Assembly (NCBI GenBank): GCA_002067315.1 | Contig: MVRA01000101.1 | Location: 1-47,207, forward strand | Source: Methanocella sp. PtaU1.Bin125 | Lineage (GTDB): Archaea; Halobacteriota; Methanocellia; Methanocellales; Methanocellaceae | Length of the DNA stretch: 47,207 bases | Direction: 5' to 3' | Shown here: positions 290 through 9,909 of the stretch, in pieces | Layout: each line of letters opens with the position of its first letter | How positions within the stretch are numbered: position 1 is the first letter of the stretch | Notes under the pieces: generated by a model | What the model saw: only the letters and a program-made list of their open reading frames with translations | Databases searched by the model: none | What the model was told of the DNA's origin: nothing | Position numbers and translations under genes: made by a program

Positions 290-1519
290 GTGTATACAAT
301 ATCGAAAACGATGGTAACGGGCTTTGCGCTCGGTGATGGGATGGATACGGAGAGGCAGAAGGACGGCTCCGGCCTGCCGGCGTTCGGCAGGCGGACCTTT
401 TTGACGATGGCAGCGGCTGCCGGCGCGGCCGTGTTCCTCGCTTCGCACGCGCCCGCGGTGGCGGCGGCGGTAGCTGACGCTGACAAAAAGATCCTCTGGC
501 TCCGGGGCGCCGGCTGCGGGGGCTGCACCGCCTCGTTCCTGAACGGGGGCAACCCGGACATCCTGGCGGCCATCGAGAACATCCGCATCGAGCTGTCGTA
601 CCACGACGGGCTCATGGGCCAGCAGGGCATCTTCATCGACGAGAAGCAGGGAAACACCGAACGGTTCAACTCGATCGCCCGGATGGATAACCTGATCAAC
701 GCCGGCGGATACCTGCTGGTGGTCGAGGGAGCCATCCCCAACGGCCCGGACGGCAGCGGCAAATACGGGGTGATCGGGAGCCGGATCAGGAACGGCCAGA
801 TCGAGAGCCTGACCATGAAGACGGCCTTCCGGGACGCCGCCGAGAACGCCGACGCCATCCTGGCGATCGGCACCTGCGCGGCTTTCGGTGGGATATCTGC
901 CGCGGGCGGCTCGGCTACCGACGCCCGGGGCGTGGCCTACACGGGCTCGTCGCGGTTCAAGGGCATCATGGGCGAGCTCGGGATGAAGAAGGACGTGATC
1001 AACGTGCCGGGCTGCCCGCCGCACCCCGACTGGCTGCTGCTGACCATCGCCGACATGGTGACCGGGGCCCCGATCGAGACGGACGACTACCGCAGGCCCG
1101 CCGCCTTTTTCCGGGAAGCGGTCCACACCTCCTGCCCGCGCCGGGGGTACTATGACGACGCCCGGCGGGACGGTAGCCTGGCCGAGGGCCGCTGTCTATA
1201 TAATCTTGGCTGCAAGGGGCCTGTGGCGTACGCCGACTGCCCGGTGCGCCGGTGGAACGCGGGCGCCAGCATGTGCACCCAGACCGGGGGCCCGTGTATC
1301 GCGTGCGTCGAGCCGGAGTTCCCCGACGCGTTCTCGCCGTTCTTCTCCCGCATCGAGGACCGGAACCTGCTGGGCGGCATCAACATCGACACGGGAGCGA
1401 AGATCATCCTGGGCGGCGCCGTGCTGGGCGCGGGCATCCACGCGGTCAAGCGGATCGCCATCGGCGACAGCGATCGCGAGGAAGAGCCGCCGAAAGAGAA
1501 GGGCAAGAGGGGGCTATAG
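290..1519 (+). CDS. [NiFe] hydrogenase small subunit with Tat signal
   Basis: This is the electron-transferring Fe-S subunit of a group 1-like, membrane-bound uptake [NiFe] hydrogenase, 409 aa. A twin-arginine signal (RRTFL, residues 34-38) followed by an Ala-rich hydrophobic stretch marks export of the folded heterodimer. The mature part begins with the proximal-cluster motif CGGC (C76, C79), then GTCAAFGG and GCPPHPDW. The distal and medial cluster cysteines lie in HTSCPRRGYY, NLGCKGP, YADCPVRRW and CTQTGGPCIAC. A hydrophobic segment near the C-terminus (IILGGAVLGAGIHAV) could anchor it beside the cytochrome subunit. The GTG at 290 has a GGTGG only 3 nt upstream; ATG at 341 is an alternative that keeps the RR motif. 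The stop abuts the large-subunit start. Close to methanogen VhtG in layout, but the exact hydrogenase subgroup was not tested. Confidence 0.9.
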   Translation: MYTISKTMVTGFALGDGMDTERQKDGSGLPAFGRRTFLTMAAAAGAAVFLASHAPAVAAAVADADKKILWLRGAGCGGCTASFLNGGNPDILAAIENIRIELSYHDGLMGQQGIFIDEKQGNTERFNSIARMDNLINAGGYLLVVEGAIPNGPDGSGKYGVIGSRIRNGQIESLTMKTAFRDAAENADAILAIGTCAAFGGISAAGGSATDARGVAYTGSSRFKGIMGELGMKKDVINVPGCPPHPDWLLLTIADMVTGAPIETDDYRRPAAFFREAVHTSCPRRGYYDDARRDGSLAEGRCLYNLGCKGPVAYADCPVRRWNAGASMCTQTGGPCIACVEPEFPDAFSPFFSRIEDRNLLGGINIDTGAKIILGGAVLGAGIHAVKRIAIGDSDREEEPPKEKGKRGL

Positions 1520-3286
1520 ATGGTCAGGATCGTGATCGACCCGGTCACCCGGACGACCGGGGGGCTGCGCTTCGCCGCGGAGATGAGAGACGGCTCGGTG
1601 GTGGACGCGAGGTGCTCGGGCACCACGTACCGCGGCTTCGAGCAGATGCTCGTCGGGCGCGACCCCATGGACGTGGTCTATTATACCCAGCGCATCTGCG
1701 GGATGTGCTCCACGCCGCATGCCATCGCGGCGGCCGGCGCCGTCGAGAGCCTCTGCGAGGCGTCCGGGGAGGTGCCCAAAGACGCGCTGGTCATCCGCAA
1801 CATCCTGAACGGGCTGGCCTGGATCCGCAGCCACGTCGAGAACCTCTACCTCTCGTTCCTGCCGGACCTCGCCGACCCCTTCTACTGGGAGCTGTTAAAG
1901 TTTTCCGACACGGGGACCGCGCTGTACGGCGAGCTCGCGAGCCGCTTCAACGTCCCCGGCTACGCGTCGGCCGTCATGACGGCGCCGGGCAGCGCCTACG
2001 CGGACGCGGTCCGGTGCGTCAAGCTCATCGGCGAGACCGAGGCCATCCTGTCCGGCCGCTCGCCCCACGGGCCGGCGATCGTCCCGGGCGGCGTCACCGC
2101 AAGGCCGACCGCCTCGGATCTTTCGAGGCTGAAGTCGAACTACGCCGCGATCGTGGACTTCCTGGAACGGCGGCTCACCGCGCCGCTGTCGCTGGACCAG
2201 TGGCTCGCGAACACCCATGCGGGCACCCCGGACCCGAACTACATCCTCGATCACGTCAACGCCCTGCCGCTCAAGGACCTGTCGGCCGGAAAAGGCTGGA
2301 ACGACATGATGCTCTTCACCGTGTTCGGATCGAGGATGATGAGCAGCGACTTCCTGGCCCTGCCGGTCTATATCGAGCTGGACACGCTGGGCGGATACCC
2401 GCTGCTCGACCAGCTGATCGGTTTCCTGAACCACGGGGCGTTCTACCGGGTGCGGGATGGCTATGCGCCCCTCGACGCGGCGCAGGCCGACGCGTACCAG
2501 GTCGCACCCGGGTTCACGGCCGGCAGCCTGCAGAACCTGTTTGCCAGCGCCGAAAGCCCGGACCCCGCCCGGATCGCGGAACAGGTCGGCAGCTCGTTCT
2601 ACACATATTCCGGCGCCGGCCTGGCGGTGCCCCCGGCGGGCGGCGAGACCATCCCGGCGGGCAGCGCGGCCGACATCGACTATGCGGGCCAGAAGTACAG
2701 TTTCGTCAAGGCGCCGCGCTACGGCGGCGTTCCCTGCGAGGTCGGGCCCATGGCCCGGATGATCAACTCCCGGGAGCCGTTCATCTTTAACATCATGAAA
2801 ATGCTGCACGACAGCAACTCCCGGTTCGCCGCCGGCAAAAGGTACACGATGACCAGCGTGTACACACGGGCCCTTTCGCGCATGCAGGAGACGCTCGTCG
2901 TGGCCCGGTGGCTCGGCGACTGGATCAACAACGACCTCGAGGTACACGACAGCGCCCGGAGGTACTGCGTCCCGGTGACGCTGAAGTCGGGCCGGGCCGG
3001 CGCGTGCCTGACGGAGGCGCCGCGGGGCATGCTGGGGCACTGGATAAGGGTGGACCACAACAGCCGGATCGCCGGCTACCAGATCGTGTCGCCCACCACC
3101 TGGAACGCCTCACCGCGGGATAACGAGACCAGGTACGGCCCCATGGAGCTCTCCACCATCGGCATCAAGACCACTCCCCGGGGCAACATGCCCGGCTCGG
3201 AAGCCAACCCTCTCAGCCTGTACCATATCATCCGGTCCTTTGACCCGTGCGTGTCCTGCGCGGTCCATACCATTAGAGGGAAATGA
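1520..3286 (+). CDS. [NiFe] hydrogenase large (catalytic) subunit
   Basis: Catalytic subunit holding the Ni-Fe(CN)2CO centre, 588 aa. The four nickel ligands are present: RICGMC (C60, C63) and DPCVSC (C577, C580) followed by AVH. RGFEQMLVGRDP precedes the first pair as in the family. Two things are odd. The N-terminal PxTRxEGH motif reads DPVTRTTGGL, so the usual Glu and His are Thr and Gly. After His583, where the maturation endopeptidase normally cuts, only five residues remain (TIRGK), against roughly 15 in many group 1 enzymes. It starts directly after the small-subunit stop and overlaps the cytochrome gene by 4 nt (ATGA), so the three are one transcription unit. No maturation protease gene lies in the window. 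The partner layout resembles VhtA. Confidence 0.92.
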   Translation: MVRIVIDPVTRTTGGLRFAAEMRDGSVVDARCSGTTYRGFEQMLVGRDPMDVVYYTQRICGMCSTPHAIAAAGAVESLCEASGEVPKDALVIRNILNGLAWIRSHVENLYLSFLPDLADPFYWELLKFSDTGTALYGELASRFNVPGYASAVMTAPGSAYADAVRCVKLIGETEAILSGRSPHGPAIVPGGVTARPTASDLSRLKSNYAAIVDFLERRLTAPLSLDQWLANTHAGTPDPNYILDHVNALPLKDLSAGKGWNDMMLFTVFGSRMMSSDFLALPVYIELDTLGGYPLLDQLIGFLNHGAFYRVRDGYAPLDAAQADAYQVAPGFTAGSLQNLFASAESPDPARIAEQVGSSFYTYSGAGLAVPPAGGETIPAGSAADIDYAGQKYSFVKAPRYGGVPCEVGPMARMINSREPFIFNIMKMLHDSNSRFAAGKRYTMTSVYTRALSRMQETLVVARWLGDWINNDLEVHDSARRYCVPVTLKSGRAGACLTEAPRGMLGHWIRVDHNSRIAGYQIVSPTTWNASPRDNETRYGPMELSTIGIKTTPRGNMPGSEANPLSLYHIIRSFDPCVSCAVHTIRGK

Positions 3287-4014
3287 TGAAGGAGAAGGAC
3301 AGGAACAGGATGGTCGTCACCCGGCACACGACGCTGGAGCGGCTGACCCACTATGCCAACATCTTCTCGCTGGCCGGCCTCCTGGTCAGCGGCTTCGTCG
3401 TCTATCTCGGCCTGCCCTATCTACAGTACAGCGACGCGTACGCGATCCATATCATATCCGCGGCCGTCTTCCTCGCGAACAACTGGATCGTCATACCGTA
3501 CAGCGCCATCGCCGACGGCCGGCTGCTGGAGTACTGGTTCATGCCCTCGGACTTCCGCCGGCTCTGGGCGGTGATCAACAATTTCTTCACCGGCTCGGAG
3601 TACCCGAGGTACTCGATCTACGACGAGCGGAAGCGGAAATTCAGGAACCGCCTGCACCCGGTGACGAAGCTGCTGCTCTACTCGCACTACGCGGCGCTCC
3701 TGGTGGCCACCGTCACGGGGGTCGTGCTCTATTCGACCGCCATCGCGCCCATGGGCGTGAACATCTCCGGCATCATCATGACCGTCCTGGACTTCGCCGC
3801 GCCCGCGCTGACCCTGTCGGGCATGGAGCTGGCCCGGATGCTCCACCTGGCGGCCGCCTACTGGTTCATCATCGAGGTCGTCCTCCACGCCGGGCTCGTC
3901 CAGCTCGACCCGAGGAAGTTCCAGCACGTGAAGTCCATGTTCATCGACGGCCGGGAGGACCTGATGACCGACCCGACGGCCGAAATCATCAACATGCTCG
4001 AAGACGACGAGTGA
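3283..4014 (+). CDS. b-type cytochrome subunit of [NiFe] hydrogenase
   Basis: Integral membrane subunit, 243 aa, expected to take electrons from the exported hydrogenase dimer and pass them to a membrane carrier (methanophenazine in Vht systems; not shown here). Four hydrophobic segments lie near residues 24-44, 54-75, 125-147 and 185-210. Histidines suited to haem b ligation occur in them: LTHYANIF (H23), AIHIISAAVF (H56), YSHYAALL, and MLHLAAAYWF with VVLHAGLV in the last segment. The start overlaps the large-subunit stop; GAGGG sits just upstream. ATG at 3286 is an equal alternative start. The C-terminus is hydrophilic and acidic. The fold and operon position fit VhtC/HyaC-type cytochrome b; haem content is inferred. 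Confidence 0.85.
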   Translation: MMKEKDRNRMVVTRHTTLERLTHYANIFSLAGLLVSGFVVYLGLPYLQYSDAYAIHIISAAVFLANNWIVIPYSAIADGRLLEYWFMPSDFRRLWAVINNFFTGSEYPRYSIYDERKRKFRNRLHPVTKLLLYSHYAALLVATVTGVVLYSTAIAPMGVNISGIIMTVLDFAAPALTLSGMELARMLHLAAAYWFIIEVVLHAGLVQLDPRKFQHVKSMFIDGREDLMTDPTAEIINMLEDDE

Positions 4015-4949: not shown

Positions 4950-6353
4950 TCAGAGGAAGAATAAGTAATAGATCAGCATTGCCAGCAGGCCCGTGATCAG
5001 GGTGGCCGCGAAGTTCACGCCGGCGTTGGAGAGAATCCTCTGATGCTGCAGGGTGGCGCCCAGCAGGCTGTCGATGTTCGTGCCGACGAATCCCATCAGG
5101 ACGGTCAGGAAGATCATGGGCCCGGCGCCGGAGCCCATCATGCCCATGAGGAAGGCGGATACTGCGATAGCCGCCGCGCCGAACAGTGACGCGGCCTCGC
5201 CCAGCGGCGACACGCCGCCGTCGGTGCCGGGGGGCACCCGCTCGAAGGTGGTGATCATCCAGGGCTGGCCTTTGTACGTGCTGCCGATCTCGCTGGCCAG
5301 GGTATCGGCGGTCGCCATGGCCATCGAGCCGAGGAATCCGACCAGGTAGATGGACTTGTCCACGATGCCGAAGTAGGGGATGTTCGCCGTGCCCACCACT
5401 CCGTAGAGCACCACGAATACCAGCGGCACGAAACAGTTGCCGAACACGTTCTTGTAGCCGCGGGAGCCGGCGTTCGCCTCGGCGGCGCCCAGCTTTTTCT
5501 TGTACCCGTACTTGTACTTGGTGAACAGGGCCCCGAGGAAGAGGAACACGAGGATGAGCGCGAACCAGGACAGCCCCTCGCCGAACACGATCATGAACAG
5601 CCCCAGCATCACGCCGCTCAGCGCTCCCGACAGGTCGACGGCGTTCAGCTTGTAGGACATGATGCCGATGGCGAACGGGATGGCCACCGCCACGGCGATC
5701 TCCGCCGGATCGGGCACCCGGGAATAGTTGAACGACGAGAAGAGCCACATGGCCATGCCGGCGCCCAGCGGGACGGCGATATCGTCCTCGTCAACGATAG
5801 TGTACAGCAGCGCGCCGGTGACCGTGCCGATCACCGACAGGAAAAACATGAAGTACAGCGGGTCTGCGCCATTCGGCACCGGGTATTCGCCCTTCACGAG
5901 GACCCAGGTGCCGAAGATGAAGGCGAACGCCGTGCCCATGACCAGCAGCGTGACGCTCCAGAACACGTCCCGGTCGCCCTTCGCCAGCAGGTTCACGATA
6001 GACGCGGTGCCTTCGCCGAACGCGACGGCGCCGATGACGGCGGCCAGGACATATACGGGAAAGTTTAGCACGATGGTGAGAATGGCCAGCAGGAGCAGGG
6101 CCCCGCAAAACTTCAGGGGCCCGAGCAGCACGCCGGCCTCCCGATCCTTCTCCGAGGCCATGGCCTTGAACAGCGGCGAGCCTTTCGGCATGTAGATGAT
6201 GCCGATGGTGCCCAGCAGTATCCCCAGGACGATGAGCTCTTTAGGGATGAACGGGAAGAGCAGCGCCAGCAGGCCCAGCGAGATATAGGCGGACTGTTTT
6301 TTAATCTCGTAGCTGATGCTATGTCCGGCTTCGCCCGGCAGCCTCGGATACAT
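4950..6353 (-). CDS. DUF92 membrane protein with prenol-kinase-like N-terminal half
   Basis: Polytopic membrane protein, 467 aa, about a dozen hydrophobic segments. The C-terminal half (from about residue 225) is a DUF92 domain: LGALFTKYKYGYKKKLGAAE, GSRGYKNVFGN, ATADTLASEIGSTYKG and ERVPPGTDGGVSPLGE are its hallmark blocks. In plants the DUF92 protein VTE6 converts phytyl phosphate to phytyl diphosphate. The N-terminal half has the spacing of CTP-dependent dolichol/phytol kinases (an AFGEGTASIV block, then a charged GDRDV and a hydrophobic GTAFAFIFG). The inference is a fused two-step kinase salvaging a prenol such as geranylgeraniol to its diphosphate. It is divergent from a cis-prenyltransferase homologue with 62 bp between, which supports a prenyl-lipid role. 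Substrate and activity are not established by sequence. Confidence 0.75.
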   Translation of the reverse strand: MYPRLPGEAGHSISYEIKKQSAYISLGLLALLFPFIPKELIVLGILLGTIGIIYMPKGSPLFKAMASEKDREAGVLLGPLKFCGALLLLAILTIVLNFPVYVLAAVIGAVAFGEGTASIVNLLAKGDRDVFWSVTLLVMGTAFAFIFGTWVLVKGEYPVPNGADPLYFMFFLSVIGTVTGALLYTIVDEDDIAVPLGAGMAMWLFSSFNYSRVPDPAEIAVAVAIPFAIGIMSYKLNAVDLSGALSGVMLGLFMIVFGEGLSWFALILVFLFLGALFTKYKYGYKKKLGAAEANAGSRGYKNVFGNCFVPLVFVVLYGVVGTANIPYFGIVDKSIYLVGFLGSMAMATADTLASEIGSTYKGQPWMITTFERVPPGTDGGVSPLGEAASLFGAAAIAVSAFLMGMMGSGAGPMIFLTVLMGFVGTNIDSLLGATLQHQRILSNAGVNFAATLITGLLAMLIYYLFFL

Positions 6354-6415: not shown

Positions 6416-7057
6416 ATGCTCGTGCGACAGGTAGCTTACGACATCTACGCCAGGTCCATGCAGAAGAGCATCGCGGGAGAGCCGGTGCCCCGGTGCATCG
6501 CGCTGGTCATCTCCGACGCGGACCTGGTGGACGACCGCGCGATCGCCAAGCTTACCGAGCTCGCCGGCTGGTCTGCAGAACTGCACGTAGGTGAGATATT
6601 CATCTACGTCAGCATCACGGAAACCAGCATCGTCGTCACGCTGACGGAATCCATTCGCGACACGTTCGCGCACGCCGGCTTCCCGGCGAAGATCGTCTCG
6701 CCGGACATGGTCGCCGAGATCAAAGGCGACCGGCCCTGTAAGGTCAACATCTCCATCGGCTTCGGCGGCAAGCACGAGCTGACGAACGCGCTGCGGGAGA
6801 TTATGGACATGGTGAAGGCCGGAAAGATCAAGCCCTCCGATATCGACGAGGCCATGGTCGAGTCCCATCTGGTCTTCCGGAGCGAGCCGGACCTGTTCAT
6901 CCGGACCGGCGAGGAGCGGCTGAGCGATTTCCTGATCTGGCAGTCGGTCTACTCCGAGCTCTACTTCACCGACGTCAACTGGGAAAACTTCCGTAAAATA
7001 GACCTGCTCCGGGCCATCCGGGACTACCAGTACAGGCAGCGCAGGTTCGGCAAATGA
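6416..7057 (+). CDS. cis-Prenyltransferase homologue lacking catalytic Asp (NgBR/Nus1-like)
   Basis: 213 aa. The C-terminal third is typical of the undecaprenyl/dehydrodolichyl diphosphate synthase family: PDLFIRTGEERLSDFLIWQ (near residues 158-176), then YSELYF and W-x-x-F. The N-terminal motif HxxxxMDGNxRWA, which carries the catalytic Asp, is absent: at that position the protein reads RCIALVISDADLVDD and the helix after it is shortened. The protein ends in RFGK, an RxG motif at the extreme C-terminus as in the eukaryotic accessory subunit NgBR/Nus1 (which ends RLGK). It therefore looks like the non-catalytic partner of a heteromeric cis-prenyltransferase making the long polyprenyl carrier for glycosylation; such a two-subunit enzyme has been described in Methanosarcina mazei. 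The catalytic partner is not in this window. Confidence 0.8.
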   Translation: MLVRQVAYDIYARSMQKSIAGEPVPRCIALVISDADLVDDRAIAKLTELAGWSAELHVGEIFIYVSITETSIVVTLTESIRDTFAHAGFPAKIVSPDMVAEIKGDRPCKVNISIGFGGKHELTNALREIMDMVKAGKIKPSDIDEAMVESHLVFRSEPDLFIRTGEERLSDFLIWQSVYSELYFTDVNWENFRKIDLLRAIRDYQYRQRRFGK

Positions 7058-7082
7058 TGACCGCAGGAGGTTGCGCCCTTTT

Positions 7083-8141
7083 ATGATCTCCGAGACCGAC
7101 GTCAGGTTCCCCGACATCCCCTTCAGGAAGACGGCCATCCTGATCATCGTCGGGCTCGTCCTGTACTTCGGCTACCTGTACCTGGTCGGCTTCGAGACGG
7201 TGAAAGAGCAGCTCGCCCGGGTCAACCTCTGGCTCGTGCTGCTGGCCGTGGCCGTATCGCTGTGCAGCAACGTCTTCCACGCGGCCGGATGGTGGGTGCT
7301 GCTGCGCCACTTGAAATATAAGATTTCCCTGGGATGGGCATACATCATCTACCTGTCCAGTATCTTCTTCACCAACCTGGTGCCCTCGGCCGCGGTCAGC
7401 GGCGAGATCGGCAAGATCTACTTCATCCAGAAGAGCGTGCCCGACACCCGTGTAGACCGGACGTTCGCTGCAGGCCTGTTCAGCCGCCTGCTCGAGGTCG
7501 TGCCGACGGCGACCGGGGCCATCCTCGGGGTCGCCTACCTCGCGCTGTACTACGACCTGCCGCTCTGGGCGATCACGCTGTGCGCGATGATCGCCGTCAG
7601 CATCGCGATGGGCGCGCTGTTCGTCCTCGCGATCTCCATGAACGTGAAGCTCCTGCAGTCCACCGCAAACGCGGTGCTCGGAGTCGTGGCCGCGGTATTC
7701 AAAGGCCGCAACATGGACGGCGTCAGGACGAAAGTCGGCGCGCTGGTCACGCAGTACGACCGGAGCATCCGGGAAATATCGGCCAGCAAGACGCTCGTCG
7801 TAAAATCGCTGGCGCTGATCTACGCCGCATGGTTCTTCGACGTGTCCGTGGCGTACATCGCCTTCGCCGCCATCGGCTACGACATACCGGTCGGCGTGGT
7901 GATGACGATCTATTCCATGATGGTCCTCGTGACCCTGATTCCCGCATTCATCCCGGGGGGGCTGGGATACGTGGACGGGCTGATGAACGTGCTGTACAGC
8001 CTGGCCGGGGTGAACAAGAACGACGCGTTCAGCGGCACCTTCGTCATACGCTTTGTCACGCTCTGGTTCCTCACGGCCGTGGGTGGCCTGTGTACGCTTT
8101 ATCTGGCGAGAGCGACGGGCAAAGAGCGACCCGGGCCTTAA
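7083..8141 (+). CDS. Flippase-like membrane protein (LPG synthase TM / AglD-type)
   Basis: About 352 aa, with some eight membrane segments, of the lysylphosphatidylglycerol synthase TM region/UPF0104 family. Recognisable blocks are NVFHAAGWWVLLRHLKYKIS, SSIFFTNLVPSAAVSGEIGK, and the late GGLGYVDGLMNVLYSLAGV. In archaea this domain occurs in AglD-type proteins linked to lipid-linked sugar handling. The position 25 bp after the cis-prenyltransferase homologue fits a role at the polyprenyl carrier, by inference. GCAGGAGG lies at 7063-7070; ATG 7083 is used here with a long 12-nt spacer, while TTG 7071 directly abuts the GGAGG. No soluble aminoacyl-transferase domain is present, so it is not a full MprF. 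Confidence 0.8.
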   Translation: MISETDVRFPDIPFRKTAILIIVGLVLYFGYLYLVGFETVKEQLARVNLWLVLLAVAVSLCSNVFHAAGWWVLLRHLKYKISLGWAYIIYLSSIFFTNLVPSAAVSGEIGKIYFIQKSVPDTRVDRTFAAGLFSRLLEVVPTATGAILGVAYLALYYDLPLWAITLCAMIAVSIAMGALFVLAISMNVKLLQSTANAVLGVVAAVFKGRNMDGVRTKVGALVTQYDRSIREISASKTLVVKSLALIYAAWFFDVSVAYIAFAAIGYDIPVGVVMTIYSMMVLVTLIPAFIPGGLGYVDGLMNVLYSLAGVNKNDAFSGTFVIRFVTLWFLTAVGGLCTLYLARATGKERPGP

Positions 8142-8842: not shown

Positions 8843-9652
8843 ATGTTCATACCCCTCAACGCTGTCAAAGAAAACGGATGGCCCAACGTGCTCGCGATCG
8901 GCGACACGGCGAGCGTGTTCTTCCTGCTCAGCCTGCTCTCGCCGTTCAAGATGAACGTATTCATCGCGGACACCGGCGTGGACGGCTCGTCGCCGCTGCA
9001 GTTCCGGCGGGGAGCGAAGAGCTCGCCCGACGTGGCTGCCGCGTACTACGACTTCTTCGACTCGCCCTACCGGATAGGCGCCGGCGTCCTGAAACGCATG
9101 GACCTGATCGTTTACACGATCGGCCGCGGGTACGTCGCCGGCTGGTCGCGGCGGCTGCGGGTGCCCTCTGCCTTCCTGAAGCGCCGCCCCGATGGCGCCA
9201 TCTTTGAGCTGGAGGGCACGTTGCCCGACGCCGGGAGCCTCGCCGGATGCCGGACGCCCGAAGGCGCCATTTCCGCCTTGCTGTCAGGCCTCGTGGACGC
9301 GGCCGGGCCGGGCCGGTACAGGGAATCGACGTCGATCGTGGCCATCGACAGCGACGGGAAAGGGCGCGTTTACCCGCCGTCCGAACGAAAGCCGTTAGAA
9401 CGCATCGTCCCGGACGAGACAAAATACAGCGCCTGGGACAGCATCGTGGAAGTGCTCGGGCCCGAGGAGAGCCTGGTGATCGACCGGCCTGACGCCAGCG
9501 GCCCGATGATGGTATCCGCCAGCCAGTCCCCCGGGCCGAAGCTGATCGAGCTGGGCGTGCCCGAGCTGCACATCCTGAAGGTCAACGGGCCGAAGGAGCG
9601 GTACATCGAGCTGACCGGCGACGCTGCACGCGTCTTCGACGGCGTGCTCTGA
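8843..9652 (+). CDS. Protein of unknown function
   Basis: 269 aa, codon use like its neighbours, preceded by a good TATA box. I do not recognise the family. It begins with a hydrophobic stretch that is too short and too polar for a clear signal peptide (NVLAIGDTASVFFLLSLLSPF), followed by alternating strand-like segments (MNVFIADTG, DLIVYTIGRGY, STSIVAIDSDGKG, ESLVIDRPD). No cysteine pairs or nucleotide-binding loop are apparent. It ends at the edge of palindromic element A1. It may be a lineage-restricted gene of methanogens; no function is proposed. Confidence 0.75.
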   Translation: MFIPLNAVKENGWPNVLAIGDTASVFFLLSLLSPFKMNVFIADTGVDGSSPLQFRRGAKSSPDVAAAYYDFFDSPYRIGAGVLKRMDLIVYTIGRGYVAGWSRRLRVPSAFLKRRPDGAIFELEGTLPDAGSLAGCRTPEGAISALLSGLVDAAGPGRYRESTSIVAIDSDGKGRVYPPSERKPLERIVPDETKYSAWDSIVEVLGPEESLVIDRPDASGPMMVSASQSPGPKLIELGVPELHILKVNGPKERYIELTGDAARVFDGVL

Positions 9653-9909
9653 GGCTCAAGGCGCCAAGTGGCCAAGAGAAGACGCCAAGACGCCACTGTA
9701 GAAACTAAGAGACGCCAAGACGCCAAGCGTTTTTTTTAATTTCAAGATGCCAAGGGGCCAAGTTCTATTTTATATAAATAATTAAACATCCGATAGGATC
9801 TTGGACACTTGGCGACTTGGACTAATAAATAAATCTTGGCGCCTTGGCGCCTCTTAGTTTCTACAGTGGCGCCTTGGGCACTCATCTTGGACACCTGGCG
9901 ACTTGATGA
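9653..9909. repeat. Word-built palindrome, family A (copy A1)
   Basis: This element fills the whole gap between two convergent genes. Two 36-nt arms, 9692-9727 and 9835-9870, are reverse complements with two mismatches; their core reads TGTAGAAACTAAGAG and then GCCAAG-type words. Outside and inside the arms more degenerate GCCAAG / CTTGGC words continue the symmetry. The AT-rich centre contains a T8 run at 9730-9738. A second copy, with the same arms and a diverged centre, lies at 29378-29640. It could act as a bidirectional terminator here; it may also be a non-autonomous mobile element. Confidence 0.85.

Follow-up and report, generated by a model that had tools for sequence, protein, structure and literature searches.

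The closest described relatives of the protein analysed here are those of arCOG02245 (COG1836, DUF92), a group of two-domain proteins described by Makarova, Galperin and Koonin in 2015 (PMC5898192). In the part of that paper concerned with this group, HHpred links DUF92 to cytidylyltransferases, and a SEC59-like N-terminal domain is described in Mbar_A3310 (99.85%), with both aspartates of this domain stated to be conserved. The single conserved gene context given for arCOG02245 is uppS, and a kinase step in isoprenoid synthesis is predicted. A search of the literature for arCOG02245, Mbar_A3310 and MJ_0933 found nothing besides this paper.

Several other systems are also relevant. VTE6 is a phytyl-phosphate kinase, and both VTE5 and VTE6 prefer CTP, according to the section of PMC9782597 that deals with them. 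The proteins MM_0618 and MM_1083 of Methanosarcina mazei make up a heteromeric cis-prenyltransferase with C45-50 products, as summarised in PMC8131916. Kinase activities towards geranylgeraniol and geranylgeranyl-P were described for Sulfolobus in a 1996 report cited within PMC9385802. The archaeal steps that follow the cis-prenyltransferase, or the last steps of dolichyl-phosphate synthesis, are described as unknown in a section of PMC5088576.

The window is the whole 47,207-nucleotide stretch of Methanocella sp. PtaU1.Bin125 DNA that was analysed. On its minus strand, a frame that is open from its ATG through 467 residues encodes a membrane protein (Table 1) that has the same architecture, uppS context and kinase-step prediction as arCOG02245 proteins such as Mbar_A3310. 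Since the fusion, the likeness to SEC59 and the linkage to uppS are all in the 2015 paper, the finding is already in print as a prediction. What is added here is that the N-terminal half (N-half) of the protein has lost catalytic residues, and which of the cis-prenyltransferase subunits is encoded beside it. Elsewhere in the window, genes for the small and large subunits of a NiFe-hydrogenase are followed by one for a cytochrome b subunit (290-4014, plus strand; Pfam NiFe_hyd_SSU_C, NiFeSe_Hases and Ni_hydr_CYTB). An open reading frame of 269 residues (8843-9652, plus strand) matches nothing in Pfam or NCBIfam at an E-value of 1 or below. In the intergenic region at 9657-9900, an AT-rich spacer is flanked to one side by degenerate 8-base repeats (GACGCCAA-like) and to the other by the reverse complement of these.

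Table 1. Features of the DUF92 locus, with positions in the window.
Feature	Position	Strand	Basis
Two-domain membrane protein, SEC59-like N-half and DUF92 C-half, 467 aa	4950..6353	-	ORF, Pfam, profile comparisons
DUF92 domain (PF01940; VTE6/COG1836), residues 225-454	4992..5681	-	Pfam E 2.7e-64
D428-S429 of the DUF92 half	5067..5072	-	alignment
DTLASEIG motif of the DUF92 half, residues 350-357	5283..5306	-	alignment
N-half (residues 1-218), degenerate dolichol/phytol-kinase-like (SEC59/COG0170) domain	5700..6353	-	hhalign 97.3-98.5%, key residues lost
GEGTA, residues 113-117, where standalone kinases have the GD motif; Glu114 for Asp	6003..6017	-	alignment
Non-catalytic (NgBR/Nus1-like) cis-prenyltransferase subunit	6416..7057	+	PF01255 match at residues 102-212 only; alignment; divergent from the DUF92 gene
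LPG_synthase_TM / flippase-like protein (PF03706)	7071..8141	+	E 4.7e-42; downstream of the accessory subunit

The C-terminal half (C-half) belongs to the VTE6 family, as the initial annotation had it. The Pfam DUF92 match spans the whole C-half and, at 217.4 bits, is over the curated cut-off of 27.5; the C-half scores 195.4 bits with NCBIfam TIGR00297, which is under the curated cut-off of 205.85. The protein carries the DUF92 motifs DTxASEIG, GxDGG(V/I) (residues 376-381) and DSxxGA (residues 428-433), and the Asp, Glu and Gly residues of these motifs are invariant or nearly so among 68 aligned DUF92 proteins. D350, T351, E355 and G357 are kept in all 68, and D428, S429, G432 and A433 in 67, the remaining one having a gap. 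Unlike VTE6, the window protein is archaeal, bears an N-terminal SEC59-like half, and has an activity that is a prediction. DUF92 is present in 379 of the 392 genomes of the phylum. Most DUF92 open frames among those listed are of 400-500 residues, and frames of ~250-300 residues also occur; in the working set, with L001 excluded, 61 of the 69 proteins have at least 380 residues and six are short.

It is unlikely that the archaeal DUF92 proteins carry out some other polyprenyl-phosphate step that uses CTP or CDP, such as the formation of a CDP-lipid or the reverse conversion of Dol-PP to Dol-P. Such a step would fit the published HHpred link to the cytidylyltransferase family (in the arCOG02245 part of PMC5898192), the description of the archaeal steps past the cis-prenyltransferase as unknown (in the section of PMC5088576 noted above), and the position of the gene among carrier-lipid genes. 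However, a characterised member of the family, plant VTE6, is a phytyl-phosphate kinase (PMC9782597, in the section on these enzymes), and the profile comparisons of DUF92 with CTP-family proteins are weak (12.9% and 0.4%).

Residues 1-220 of the window protein matched no Pfam or NCBIfam family, nor, barring scattered weak matches, did 32 aligned long relatives (A2) show any further Pfam family. The ancestry of the N-half was evident from comparisons between profiles. By hhalign, a profile of 61 fused N-halves matched a first set of standalone SEC59-type proteins (relatives of L082/L085) at 97.3% (E 2.1e-11, 176 columns) and a second set (L083 and L170-L189) at 98.5% (E 2.2e-15), the alignment to these VTE5/SEC59 (COG0170) proteins, which include L083 and L085 of the same genome, extending across 164-176 profile columns. 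A profile made from the window's family only (4 sequences) gave 96.3% and 95.2% with the two sets. When the second set was compared with full-length fused proteins, the match (98.2%) fell on columns 26-212, which are those of the N-half, and a search of 147 genomes with the first-set profile also matched two N-halves directly (G005, 5.8e-4; G054, 8.4e-4).

Two other origins of this likeness were considered and rejected. A generic membrane-protein likeness was ruled out by the scores of unrelated membrane families against the N-half profile (UbiA 6.0%, flippase 0.2% and CarS 0.9%) and by reversed-profile controls, which reached at most 7.3%; a duplication of the DUF92 half was ruled out by a profile comparison of 2.6%. 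The high match to the standalone proteins and the low controls together indicate that the likeness exceeds generic membrane-protein resemblance. Judged from these profiles, residues ~13-215 are a true distant homolog of the SEC59/COG0170 dolichol/phytol-kinase-type proteins, in keeping with the VTE5-like layout first proposed for this half. An AlphaFold2 model built from two aligned sequences, those of the window protein and of a partial relative, had a mean pLDDT of 36.4, too low for the model to be used.

The full dolichol-kinase motif is DxxAxxxGxxxG...KKTxEG. Residues at the sites of this type were counted from MAFFT columns mapped by hhalign, with the partial L001 excluded; two of the loci, L002 and L053, are that of the window. 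The Asp of the GD motif is present in all 51 standalone kinases (21/21 and 30/30 in the two sets) versus 5 of the 61 fused N-halves, which are a non-random set of best-scoring loci, others chosen by family, and further matches, with family f3 over-represented. The motif Lys is found in 47 of the 51 (20/21 and 27/30) versus 2 of the 61, and the His of RKxxH in 51/51 versus 11/61. The window protein differs from the standalone proteins at all three sites, with Glu114 for the Asp, Asp129 for the Lys and Tyr23 for the His. Among the fused N-halves, Glu occurs at the Asp site more often than any other residue (16/61). A lenient count, in which an Asp up to 3 residues away is accepted, leaves the figure at 5 of the 61, and any Lys within 3 residues of the motif site is found in 22. 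Only L006 and L018, both with GDG, combine the GD motif with a Lys within 3 residues. The later DN motif retains its Asp more often: the window protein has Asp190, and the Asp is at exactly this position in 21 of the 61 N-halves and within 2 residues of it in 45. By these alignments, the N-half has lost two residues of its nucleotide site, the Asp and the Lys. This differs from the statement on the aspartates in the arCOG02245 paper, made there for Mbar_A3310, in that the GD Asp is absent from the window protein and from most of the 61 relatives.

The initial annotation had suggested that a single protein might carry out both steps, with the N-half phosphorylating a prenol and the DUF92 half adding the second phosphate. 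For this to be so, Glu114 would have to stand in for the Asp, and a basic residue that has gone unrecognised for the Lys. The initial annotation itself named an N-half devoid of the conserved nucleotide-binding residues as what would speak against its proposal, and the window protein has such an N-half. With the N-half lacking the needed residues, as the Glu, Asp and Tyr of the window protein and the counts across its relatives indicate, a two-step enzyme in one protein is quite improbable. The same genome also has three standalone SEC59-type genes, and short forms of DUF92 exist without any N-half. What speaks for both halves being active is that the N-half is truly homologous to SEC59/VTE5 and well conserved in the window's family, that L006 and L018 retain GDG with a nearby Lys, and that the N-domain aspartates are given as conserved for one example in the part of PMC5898192 on this group.

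The two halves differ in how they have diverged. Across families, identity to the window protein is 18-40% in the N-half versus 39-52% in the C-half; inside the window's family it is 65-72% versus 60-71%. An N-half that is kept within the family and diverged across families is the pattern expected of a retained, non-catalytic domain. Glu sometimes substitutes for Asp in metal binding. This reading of the N-half is not proven because the Glu may serve a metal site, and the strong conservation seen inside this family could also reflect an active domain.

Standalone SEC59-type genes are found at three places in the same genome, C80, C70 (where the gene adjoins a CarS paralog) and C58. The gene at C58 (L083) encodes GDGVATLAGKAVGG followed by RKTLAGS, together with a C-terminal Glu and Asp-Asn. 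Taken alone, L083 and L085 are under the Pfam cut-offs. In the second standalone set as a whole, PF01148 matches 5 of the 20 members (best 1.8e-7), and the profile of the set finds the CdsA structures 4q2g (2.7e-4) and 4q2e (8.1e-4) in the PDB. The PF01148 and CdsA matches place this set in the cytidylyltransferase superfamily. The three genes could supply the first, prenol kinase, step. A match to the standalone profile was found in 114 of 147 genomes searched across the phylum, despite the doubt expressed in a section of PMC5088576 about dolichol kinase orthologues in most Euryarchaea. The CarS genes of the same genome, L081 and L082, initially came up as PF01148 matches and were set aside as CDP-archaeol synthases. 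At L082:488-1821 a standalone SEC59-type gene adjoins the second CarS-like gene, the genome having two CarS copies.

DGNRR is the catalytic motif of cis-prenyltransferases. The gene divergent from the DUF92 gene, previously described as that of a cis-prenyltransferase, does have a PF01255 match, but it encodes an accessory subunit and not the catalytic one. Compared with full-length cis-prenyltransferases, its 213-residue product is without the DGNRR region and the His that follows, and keeps the C-terminal RxG (it ends RRFG), a motif discussed in a passage of PMC8131916. A full-length catalytic type with the DGNRR region is encoded on another contig of the same genome (G000:C172). The presence of both types is a heteromeric cis-prenyltransferase layout, like that of the two-subunit M. 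mazei enzyme. Unlike the two-subunit set of the M. mazei comparison, only the accessory gene adjoins the DUF92 gene in the window, and the arCOG02245 paper differs in naming the neighbour as uppS.

The divergent pairing of the accessory subunit and DUF92 genes was found at 30 of 69 loci, in 13 of 24 families, by a strict test, and at 33 of the 69 when L004, L065 and L080 are counted, which the strict test missed with their open reading frames extended to an upstream start. In family f3 the two genes are adjacent in none of the 22 loci inspected; families f1 and f3 are, by inference, those of Methanocella and Methanosarcina respectively. The PF03706 flippase-like gene downstream of the accessory subunit recurs at the remaining window-family loci (L053-L056, of which L053 is the window). 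The assignment of the locus to prenyl metabolism can be retained. At L041, L044, L058-L062, L065 and L080 there is a second accessory-cis-prenyltransferase-like open reading frame near the DUF92/accessory pair. Both subunits of the cis-prenyltransferase may share a locus in some families.

The separation of the two genes throughout the f3 loci inspected would be expected if their pairing were incidental and the protein salvaged a geranylgeraniol-derived phosphate for membrane lipids, and the Sulfolobus kinase activities cited within PMC9385802 also speak for this. This is very improbable given that the divergent pairing recurs in over half of the families by the strict test, and that it is the single conserved context according to the arCOG02245 part of PMC5898192.

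On balance, the protein is probably a CTP-dependent isoprenyl-phosphate kinase that acts through its DUF92 half, with the N-half as a non-catalytic membrane platform. The activity, the nucleotide, the substrate and the role of the N-half are all predicted here from the sequence of the protein and its relatives. The DUF92 half would use CTP to phosphorylate a prenyl monophosphate, either geranylgeranyl-P or polyprenyl-P, to the diphosphate, and this diphosphate would serve, or the kinase would act around, the heteromeric cis-prenyltransferase responsible for the glycosyl-carrier lipid. The N-half would descend from a CTP-dependent lipid kinase of the SEC59/VTE5 type, its nucleotide-site Asp and Lys having been lost, and would most likely provide a substrate groove, a dimer interface or a docking surface for the prenyltransferase. 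Prenol phosphorylation, if it is present in the cell, would probably be carried out by the separate standalone SEC59-type enzymes.

More tentatively, and with less confidence than is placed in the kinase assignment, the N-half may be a pseudo-lipid-kinase that holds the prenyl chain or docks the cis-prenyltransferase so that the diphosphate is handed over directly. Since a few members (L006 and L018) keep the GD motif and a nearby Lys, the domain would then have been caught at different stages of the loss of catalysis, and one archaeal phylum would show it at these successive stages.

Being near-universal in the phylum and paired with a cis-prenyltransferase subunit, the DUF92 protein makes a good candidate for a step among the last ones of dolichyl-phosphate synthesis and the kinase activities reported for Sulfolobus. 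With the N-half probably inactive, it is the phosphate kinase step that should come first in considering this protein, and the prenol kinase that should be sought among the standalone genes.
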